A stretch of 64,000 nucleotides of DNA from Thermosynechococcaceae cyanobacterium MS004 (lineage in GTDB: Bacteria; Cyanobacteriota; Cyanobacteriia; Thermosynechococcales; Thermosynechococcaceae). This document shows, piece by piece, positions 43,780 to 48,297 of the stretch. How positions within the stretch are numbered: the first letter of the stretch is position 1; every line of letters starts with the position of its first letter. A model generated the notes under the pieces. The model was not told where the DNA came from. It worked only from the letters and a program-made list of their open reading frames with translations, and made no database searches. The translations under genes were made by a program, and so were the position numbers. The stretch spans positions 1-64,000 of the forward strand of contig JAKRSB010000150.1 of the NCBI GenBank assembly GCA_022402525.1, in the 5' to 3' direction.

Positions 43780-44101
43780 ATAGAGAACTAGCGTTTGTAA
43801 TGGGTCAAGAATGGGTCAAGTTTAAGAAGGGGGCGATGAGACTGAAGTCTACTGGGCAACTTCAGCAATATAGCCGTCTACCTTAGGGTAAAACAACCGC
43901 AGTTACTGGAGCCAGCGAATGAATAAGTCCTGCGGACAGGCTACGCCAGCGTACCTACTTGTAGCTGCGGTTTCAGCCGCTAAGCGAAAAGTTTCCTCAA
44001 GATACAAGTCAATCAGGGTTTGAACTCCGGACACGAGAATTTTCAGCCCTTATCTCAGGAGAGGAGAGACTTCATGACAAATGAAATGCGATCGCCATTG
44101 G
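43780..44101. other. Intergenic stretch with left boundary repeat of the accessory segment
   Basis: No gene. It contains a palindromic GCGGACAGGCTACGCC-type cyanobacterial repeat at about 43931-43948 and the 32-base tRNA-Phe-like direct repeat described at 44019-44050. Confidence 0.5.
44019..44050 (-). repeat. Partial copy of tRNA-Phe (putative attachment-site repeat)
   Basis: These 32 bases match 48239-48270 in the intact tRNA-Phe with two mismatches and in the same orientation. The match runs from the anticodon arm to the T arm of the tRNA, not including the acceptor end. It lies on the 3' side of the tRNA at a distance of 4220 bases, as expected for the far end of an element integrated at a tRNA gene. 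Confidence 0.75.
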
Positions 44102-44285
44102 ATGAGTCTAGCGCGTCAGCTTGCCGAAGAGATGAAGCGGAAGAAAATTACTAAAACTGAGATAGCGATGAAGATGCAGACGAGTCGAGCATAGCTTGAT
44201 CGCCGATTGGATTCTGAAAAAAATAGAAGTTTCAATTGATAGGATTAAACAGGCAGTGTTGGTGATGGATCGTCAATTTCGTGAC
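44102..44285 (+). pseudogene. Broken copy of the XRE helix-turn-helix gene
   Basis: Clear homologue of the intact gene at 45008. It starts MSLARQLAEEMKRKKITKTE and keeps AMKMQTSRA, but an in-frame TAG follows and a frame change comes after the SEK segment. An upstream ATG at 44074 is in another frame. It shares the same 5' flank (GCGATCGCCATTGGATGAGTC) in part with the third copy at 45951. Confidence 0.85.
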
Positions 44286-44352
44286 TGAGATTGCAAATGA
44301 GTTTGTACGATTTACGAAAGATCGAAAATTCTCGTTTTGGGTGGAGGGTTAG

Positions 44353-44997
44353 ATGATGCAAGATTTACAGGCTAGATCCATCACAGATACCTGGATAGCA
44401 ACCTCTTGGGATGATTATGTTCGCATTCTTGAAGACCCTCTCTATGAGAAGGCGAAGGGTTATTACTATAAAGAACACATGAGGCTTGAGATGTTGCCAG
44501 TCGGTTTCGATCATGGTAACGACCATGTGGTAATCATTTTTGCGGTCAATTTGTTTACGGCGATGATGAGCATTCCATCTACTGGTTTAGACACGACGAC
44601 GTTTCGTAAAACTGGGATGAGGGACTGTCAGCCGGATGTGTCTTATTACCTTGGGCGTAATGCTAAGGCAATTCCACGCGGAACGGGAATTGTAGATCTG
44701 GATCGATATCCGGCACCAAATTTAGTGATTGAGGTTGCAAAGTCTTCGTTGCTGGATGATGTGGGCGCAAAGCGATCGCTGTATGAGGAGTTGGGCGTGG
44801 CTGAGTATTGGGTGGTGGATGTCCAAAATGCTCAGGTTTTGGCCTATGCGATGGCTGACCAAGGCAGCAAACGTATTCAAGGCTCTCTGGTTTTACCGGG
44901 ACTTACTATGCCTGTGTTAGAAGAGGCTCTGCGTCGCAGTCGAGAGACAGATCAATCGCAGGTGGGAAGTTGGTTGTTGGCTCAGTTTCAGAAGTAA
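44353..44997 (+). CDS. Uma2-family (DUF820) PD-(D/E)xK nuclease-like protein
   Basis: A 214-residue member of the large cyanobacterial Uma2 family of putative endonucleases. The catalytic pattern is visible: the Asp in CQPDVSYYLG, the Glu-x-Ala in PNLVIEVAKSS (where the lysine of E-x-K is shifted to the next residue), and YEELGVAEYWVVD. The biological role of these abundant proteins is unknown. The XRE gene follows after 10 bases, suggesting an operon. It lies in the tRNA-Phe-bounded segment. Confidence 0.88.
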   Translation: MMQDLQARSITDTWIATSWDDYVRILEDPLYEKAKGYYYKEHMRLEMLPVGFDHGNDHVVIIFAVNLFTAMMSIPSTGLDTTTFRKTGMRDCQPDVSYYLGRNAKAIPRGTGIVDLDRYPAPNLVIEVAKSSLLDDVGAKRSLYEELGVAEYWVVDVQNAQVLAYAMADQGSKRIQGSLVLPGLTMPVLEEALRRSRETDQSQVGSWLLAQFQK

Positions 44998-45007
44998 GAG
45001 TGCCATT

Positions 45008-45217
45008 ATGATCGCTACTAAACGGGTACTGGCGCGTCAGTTGGCTGAGGAGATGAAGCGGAAGAAGATCACTAAAACTGAGGTGGCAATAAAGATGCAG
45101 ACGAGTCGGGCACAACTAGACCGCCTATTGGATCCTGAAAAAACAGGTGTTTCGATTGATACGATTCAACGGGCTGCGTCGGTGGTGGGTCGTCAGTTAC
45201 GAATAGAGTTGATTTGA
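45008..45217 (+). CDS. XRE-like helix-turn-helix protein, intact copy
   Basis: A 69-residue DNA-binding protein: RVLARQLAEEMKRKKITKT, then the recognition part EVAIKMQTSRAQLDRLLDP and VSIDTIQRAASVVGRQL. It resembles antitoxin-type XRE regulators of the HigA class, but the gene beside it encodes a Uma2 protein rather than a HigB toxin. Two degraded paralogues lie within 1 kb on both sides. Confidence 0.85.
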   Translation: MIATKRVLARQLAEEMKRKKITKTEVAIKMQTSRAQLDRLLDPEKTGVSIDTIQRAASVVGRQLRIELI

Positions 45218-45309
45218 AGGTTGGATTTAGGTGATTTTGGAGGGGGCGATCGCCATTTTTCTTGACAACGAGGCACTTTACTTTGCAGGTTACAAGTTAG
45301 ATTCGACGC

Positions 45310-47065: not shown

Positions 47066-47616
47066 TTGTTAATGGCACTTACTCCAGATTGATCGCTTTA
47101 CTCAAGAAAGCCAAACAATATCCAAAATTCTAGAAGCACCTAACTCTATTTTCTAAACTTTGAAGACATGAATTGATCGTAAAGTCCAAGGCTGGAAAAC
47201 AGTCTAACCTGAAAAATCTCGATAATTGACGAACTTACAGCAATTTTTACTTATAACTCATAATAGGATTTTCCCAAGTCTCCTTATGCTTCTTCAGGGG
47301 CAGTAGGCTCAAACGGATCCTCATAGAAAAGGACTGCGCTTCGCAAGGGATAGAGGTTCGGTTCAGGTTAATCAATAGCCTTTTCCATTTGATTGGGGGA
47401 TTCTCCTAGCCCTTTCAGGGCGGCTTCGCCAGTGGAGACACTATGCGATTCTCTTTCAGATACACTATGCGATCGCTCCAAAATAATCACCTACACCGTA
47501 TCGCCGACATGAAACGGCAGAGTCTTCAACGTCAAAGCTCTGTTTTTCGGTAGGGTATCCTTAAGCTAAGATCCATTAATGCTTTAAATCATCGAACCAT
47601 AGCAAGCTAGATATAA
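47066..47616. other. Decayed stretch
   Basis: 551 bases with no intact gene. It holds the antitoxin relic at 47285-47565 and two small palindromic blocks (TGCGCTTCGCAAGG near 47335 and GGGCGGCTTCGCCAGTGG near 47425) of the kind seen as dispersed repeats in cyanobacteria. Confidence 0.5.
47285..47565 (-). pseudogene. Relic of an antitoxin gene
   Basis: Leftward reading gives ALTLKTLPFHVGDTV, stop (TAG), VIIL, and about 180 bases further on LRSAVLFYEDPFEPTAPEEA. These two blocks match the start and the end of a common cyanobacterial antitoxin family (pattern LPFxxGDxVEVIIL ... YEDPFEP). Stops and frame changes lie between. No toxin partner remains. Confidence 0.6.
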
Positions 47617-47919
47617 ATGCAAGCCTCCAACGAGCAAAATATTGCTAAAAAAGCTCAAGCCTCTGCAAAGGCTGCTAAAAGCACTGCTCATGCCGAGCGG
47701 ATTAGGGCGATCGCCTACAGCATGGATACCCTAGTCCCTGGACTTTATGCTTGGTGTGGGCCATTTACGATTCGCCTTGGCGGCTGCACCCCAGACGATC
47801 AGCCCTACCCTTACCCTGGAACCCTTCACAGTCATTATGGGTTAGCCCTCGCATTGCCGGGATATCGCATTTTCACAACCTACAAAGATACCTATGACCC
47901 TAGACAAGCATCAAATTGA
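47617..47919 (+). CDS. Protein of unknown function
   Basis: A possible 100-residue product with a Lys/Ala-rich N-terminal helix and a core with MDTLVPGLYAWCGPFTIRLG and YPYPGTLHSHYGLALALPGY. Not recognised. The aromatic, Pro/Gly-rich middle does not look random, but the region is a decayed island, so the gene may itself be truncated. The next small frame overlaps its 3' end by 26 bases. Confidence 0.45.
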   Translation: MQASNEQNIAKKAQASAKAAKSTAHAERIRAIAYSMDTLVPGLYAWCGPFTIRLGGCTPDDQPYPYPGTLHSHYGLALALPGYRIFTTYKDTYDPRQASN

Positions 47920-48043
47920 TGGCCTGCCTGGGTTCAAGCAAAAGACAATGCCAGCCAACGAATTCGAAAACCTCATGGGCGAGGCTGGCTATGAAAGGGT
48001 TGGTTCAGGACAAGGGCAGGCAGGTCGATTCAAAATCTGGTGA
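47894..48043 (+). CDS. Possible 49-residue protein, truncated by MITE half copy
   Basis: Reads MTLDKHQIDGLPGFKQK, then ENLMGEAGYERVGSGQ and ends GRFKIW. The ATG lies within the end of the preceding frame, as in coupled genes. The second half loosely resembles the HicA toxin fold (helix, then G-Y-E-x-V strand), which would fit the setting, but the match is weak. The stop TGA sits exactly where MITE-like sequence begins, so the original protein may have been longer. Confidence 0.4.
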   Translation: MTLDKHQIDGLPGFKQKTMPANEFENLMGEAGYERVGSGQGQAGRFKIW

Positions 48044-48116
48044 TTGCCCCTCCTTCTCCCTAGGGAGAAGGAGGATGGGAGGATGAGGGGCGATTGTTTT
48101 GTTGTCCAACTCACGC
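48043..48116 (-). mobile_element. MITE half copy
   Basis: About 74 bases match one half of the MITE in the orientation of copy 1, including its GGGAGGATGAGGGG block and the terminal repeat (CCAACTCACGC, two mismatches). The other half is absent and no target duplication is seen. Confidence 0.75.
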
Positions 48117-48224
48117 CAAAGCTGCATAGTGCAGCATCGTCTTGAAAAGACTTGGCAAAAATCCAACGCTTAAGGCTTTGCTTGAAACCCTTACTCATTA
48201 GCGACTTTGTTTGATTTGTTTAAA

Positions 48225-48297
48225 TGCCAGGACGGAGATTTGAACTCCGGACACGAGGATTTTCAGTCCTCTGCTCTACCAACTGAGCTATCCCGGC
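48225..48297 (-). tRNA. tRNA-Phe (GAA)
   Basis: A 73-base cloverleaf on the minus strand. Acceptor arms GCCGGGA and TCCTGGC pair (with one G-T), the D arm has GCTCAGTTGGTAGAGC, the anticodon is GAA in the loop CTGAAAA and the T loop is GTTCAAATC. Discriminator A at 48225; CCA not encoded. It marks the right boundary of the accessory segment. Confidence 0.95.

Follow-up and report, generated by a model that had tools for sequence, protein, structure and literature searches.

The 4.2-kb segment at 44019-48297 is quite likely to be what erosion has left of a mobile element, one that integrated into the chromosome through site-specific recombination at the 3' half of a tRNA-Phe gene. It belongs to a stretch of 64,000 nucleotides analysed here as a whole (the window), taken from contig C59 of a 4.93-Mb cyanobacterial genome. 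We regard it as probably a decayed tRNA-Phe island, a degraded example of an ordinary and known island type, since the target site, the side and strand of the copy, the base at which the copy starts, the base composition and the cargo are all in keeping with one. The missing integrase, the truncated far repeat and the lack of an empty site leave this reading short of proof.

An intact tRNA-Phe gene (anticodon GAA), identified with ARAGORN, occupies 48225-48297 on the minus strand at the holB end of the segment and is the proposed attachment site. At 44019-44050 lies a partial copy, proposed to be the decayed far attachment site: it has the same strand as the tRNA gene, is on its 3' side at 4220 bp (start to start), and matches tRNA positions 28-59 at 30 of 32 bases, from the 5' strand of the anticodon stem through the T loop. 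The initial annotation had given the tRNA gene and its direct copy on the 3' side with these coordinates and 30 identical bases of 32, and ARAGORN and alignment agree with it. The copy is the sole tRNA-Phe fragment in the whole 4.93-Mb genome (E 4e-7), the remaining two matches of the search being the tRNA-Met and tRNA-Trp genes; the many other fragments that, according to the initial annotation, would speak against an island are not there. Aligned without gaps it scores 26, against a maximum of 15 in 100 Markov-resampled windows. Bases 60-73 of the tRNA are unrecognisable at the far copy, and in a gapped extension toward the tRNA 3' end the best local alignment stops at base 59. The copy therefore lacks the final 14 bases of the tRNA, unlike the intact attachment repeats of relatives, which reach base 73, so that some decay must be assumed.

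The segment has a GC content of 44.7%, in line with the higher AT content first noted; the 10 kb on either side have 52.8% and 52.6%. Among stretches of its length in the window it lies at the GC minimum, none being appreciably more AT-rich.

The gene content, given initially as XRE genes, a Uma2 nuclease, a MazF-like pair, an HNH nuclease and relics, was recovered as claimed, with the PemK/MazF match falling below the Pfam cut-off. Next to the partial tRNA copy is a first, broken XRE copy (44085-44290, plus strand) that carries stops and misses its proper N-terminus. It is followed by an open gene for a putative nuclease of the Uma2 family (44353-44997, plus; 214 aa; Pfam PF05685, 7.6e-22) and by a second XRE copy (45008-45217, plus; 69 aa; HTH_26 in Pfam), which is open and devoid of the N-terminal extension present in a homologue from a same-family genome (L155). 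A third copy (45934-46150, plus) again carries stops. Copies 1 and 3 are 94% identical over 139 nucleotides, while copy 1 shares just 71% with the open copy 2. Between the second and third copies lies a MazF/PemK-like toxin gene (45310-45639, minus) with a lone in-frame TAG after codon 30, beyond which the frame reads on; its match to PF02452, at 7e-4, is below cut-off. An open gene of 74 aa (45617-45841, minus) is called antitoxin-like only from its MazE position and its overlap with the start of the MazF relic, and its protein has no confident family match in Pfam or NCBIfam. NCBIfam has no model that would give a name to the XRE, Uma2 or small proteins.

The cargo also includes an intact gene for an HNH restriction-type endonuclease (46256-47065, minus; 269 aa; HNH_2 3.3e-12; PADLOC HNH 1.9e-93). 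Homologues 61-69% identical to it occur in other cyanobacterial families, and its distribution is patchy in the class: it is in neither congener, and among the sampled genomes of the same family only G004 has a match, a partial one. Closer to the tRNA gene, a small conserved cyanobacterial gene (47617-47919, plus; 100 aa) is matched in 38 other genomes of the 242 searched. It overlaps a gene of 49 aa (47894-48043, plus), and the pair (47617-48043), which belongs to no named family, is kept together in all seven homologous loci that were fetched from other cyanobacteria. Immediately beyond is a palindrome-bearing repeat of about 72 bp (48043-48115, plus), one of 40 copies in the genome at E <= 2e-20; another of the 40 is found in the window at 17085-17156.

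Could the segment be normal chromosome passed down vertically, with a tRNA match that is coincidental? The flanks do consist of ordinary housekeeping genes. However, a match that is unique in the genome and far above the resampled expectation, together with an HNH gene that the congeners do not have and that occurs unevenly across the class, makes this explanation scarcely credible. Conservation of the same gene content across relatives, which the initial annotation named as an outcome that would refute the island, did not occur.

Pfam revealed neither an integrase nor an excisionase nor any further mobility gene in the segment, and a tblastn search for integrase relics, with four integrases as queries, gave chance-level matches only; the integrase had been reported absent from the start. 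This absence allows the segment to be classed as a remnant only, not as an active tRNA-gene island. Elsewhere in the genome there are eight PF00589 matches, none of them on the window's contig, and the tRNA-Phe integrase described below has a single match there, 30% identical, on contig C131.

We compared the tRNA-Phe and cyclic-nucleotide gene loci over 58 genomes. A second, 3'-half copy of tRNA-Phe is present in several, with three clean cases: tRNA bases 28-73 are directly repeated 9.3 kb from tRNA-Phe in G035, and bases 32-73 are directly repeated at 13.3 kb in G030 and 12.5 kb in G046. In each, a tyrosine integrase immediately follows tRNA-Phe, so that relatives display the architecture of the segment with an integrase in place. 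The 5' edge of the repeat is base 28 both in the window copy and in G035, and base 32 in the other two. An integrase also comes immediately after tRNA-Phe in G045 and G034, and adjoins a 3'-half repeat at a contig end in G055. All six islands have the same target tRNA as the segment and a repeat start that is the same or nearby. Unlike the segment, they keep the integrase and bear other cargo, and the clean ones have repeats extending to base 73 and span 9-13 kb. In G003, from the window's own family, an integrase with internal stops lies just 3' of tRNA-Phe, so the family has another instance of decay at this site.

The elements of G030 and G046 (L102 and L103, about 13 kb) combine the integrase with PHROG matches to a primase/helicase (phrog_239) and to a collagen-like tail fibre; no capsid or terminase match of note was obtained among the nine proteins scanned. 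Another genome, G008, has two tRNA-Phe pieces about 100 bp apart in opposite orientations (L101:9279-9440), and no intact tRNA-Phe was found in its assembly.

Scanning GTDB species genomes with an alignment of these integrases yielded 80 loci (L186-L265). Among integrases at least 57% identical, tRNA-Phe lies 139-215 bp upstream on the same strand in 27 of 32 loci; no tRNA was found at the other five, three of which are at contig edges. Over all 80 loci the neighbouring gene is tRNA-Phe in 35, tRNA-Cys in 22, tRNA-Thr in 8, tRNA-Arg in 3 and tRNA-Gly in 1, and 11 have no tRNA within 600 bp. The target thus appears to follow the sequence relatedness of the integrases, close relatives being at tRNA-Phe and the others at tRNA-Cys, -Thr, -Arg or -Gly. 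Direct repeats were sought within 10 kb at the 80 loci and almost none were found; the elements probably extend beyond the stretch compared.

The use of tRNA-Phe by cyanobacterial elements was already known in part, since an integrase family adjoining tRNA-Phe or tRNA-Cys has been reported in Prochlorococcus and Synechococcus (PMC10187409). Those picocyanobacterial islands, too, have variable content and a tyrosine integrase by one of the two tRNA genes that dominate our 80 loci. Their integrase is an unusual one, however, and the comparison made here is one of target tRNA and island content.

Each genome examined has different genes downstream of tRNA-Phe. The two congeners, G001 and G002, are available as fragmentary assemblies (one 76%, the other 82% complete), and what follows tRNA-Phe in them is unrelated to the window's genes: judged by eye, methyltransferase-, acetyltransferase- and LysR regulator-like genes in G001, and a set including a permease-like gene in G002. 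About 3 kb from tRNA-Phe, G001 also has a large frame that by eye resembles an insecticidal-type toxin complex component (L094:73-3006). The cyclic-nucleotide gene of G001 adjoins truB on a different contig from tRNA-Phe; in the window's genome truB is on contig C20. An empty site, with the cyclic-nucleotide gene joined to tRNA-Phe, occurs in none of the 58 genomes. G021, where both loci are on one contig in the same orientation, 15 kb apart with unrelated genes between, was considered and set aside as too weak a comparison. The comparison of this locus in relatives, suggested at the outset, therefore brought out other cargo at tRNA-Phe but no such junction, and the left boundary of the segment has no independent confirmation.

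This leaves some room for a different history, in which part of tRNA-Phe was duplicated astray, or an unrelated event left the fragment behind, and a rearrangement joint gathered the accessory genes piecemeal without their ever forming a single element. A copy devoid of the tRNA 3' end and a segment devoid of mobility genes would agree with this, and rearrangement of the region is evident from the congeners, which differ in what adjoins tRNA-Phe and the cyclic-nucleotide gene; the genome-wide 72-bp repeats and the local XRE duplications attest to other types of change. Yet the fragment starts where the attachment repeat of a real tRNA-Phe island starts, it is on the correct side and strand, and tRNA-Phe is a recurrent target of an apparently dedicated integrase clade. 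We consider such a history improbable.

The decayed island in the tRNA-Phe 3' half that was first put forward hence stands as the best explanation, given cyanobacterial integrases that use the site and share its start base, though with no empty site and a copy 14 bases short. Like tRNA-gene islands of the anticodon-loop class, which depend on tyrosine integrases, the segment has an intact tRNA at one end, a same-strand partial copy on the 3' side, foreign composition and defence-type cargo; unlike them, it lacks an integrase, its far repeat is truncated and no empty site is found. Its origin by integration, and the following order of losses, are what we infer. The element's own tRNA-Phe-like attachment site would have recombined with the 3' half of the chromosomal tRNA-Phe, the crossover falling within the anticodon loop or close to it. 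Integration would have left the tRNA intact at one end and moved a 3'-half copy to the other, now at 44019-44050. Loss of the integrase and of most of the element may have followed, and the far repeat would have shed its last 14 tRNA bases. Breakage of the cargo would account for the MazF stop and the two broken XRE copies, the HNH nuclease, Uma2 and a few small genes surviving.

Did a single element bring all of this? Two or more successive elements may have used tRNA-Phe, the fragment deriving from an older one and the cargo from later arrivals or from insertions that were not site-specific, a possibility that overlaps with the decayed-island reading and refines it. Different integrases do use tRNA-Phe repeatedly, and the decay of the cargo is mixed, with XRE copies of differing divergence. 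Only one fragment is present, however, and one event is simpler; we hold several arrivals to be possible but doubtful.

The remnant itself is ordinary, and its value lies in being a decayed example at a recurrent integration point of cyanobacteria. The chances seem evenly balanced that the integrases form a clade dedicated to the anticodon-side half of tRNA-Phe, its sister groups using tRNA-Cys, -Thr, -Arg and -Gly, and that throughout the phylum tRNA-Phe serves as a docking site for small elements, defence-carrying or phage-like, with an end-stage remnant of one in the window. As integrase targets seemingly follow relatedness, target choice and island decay may be testable within one phylum.
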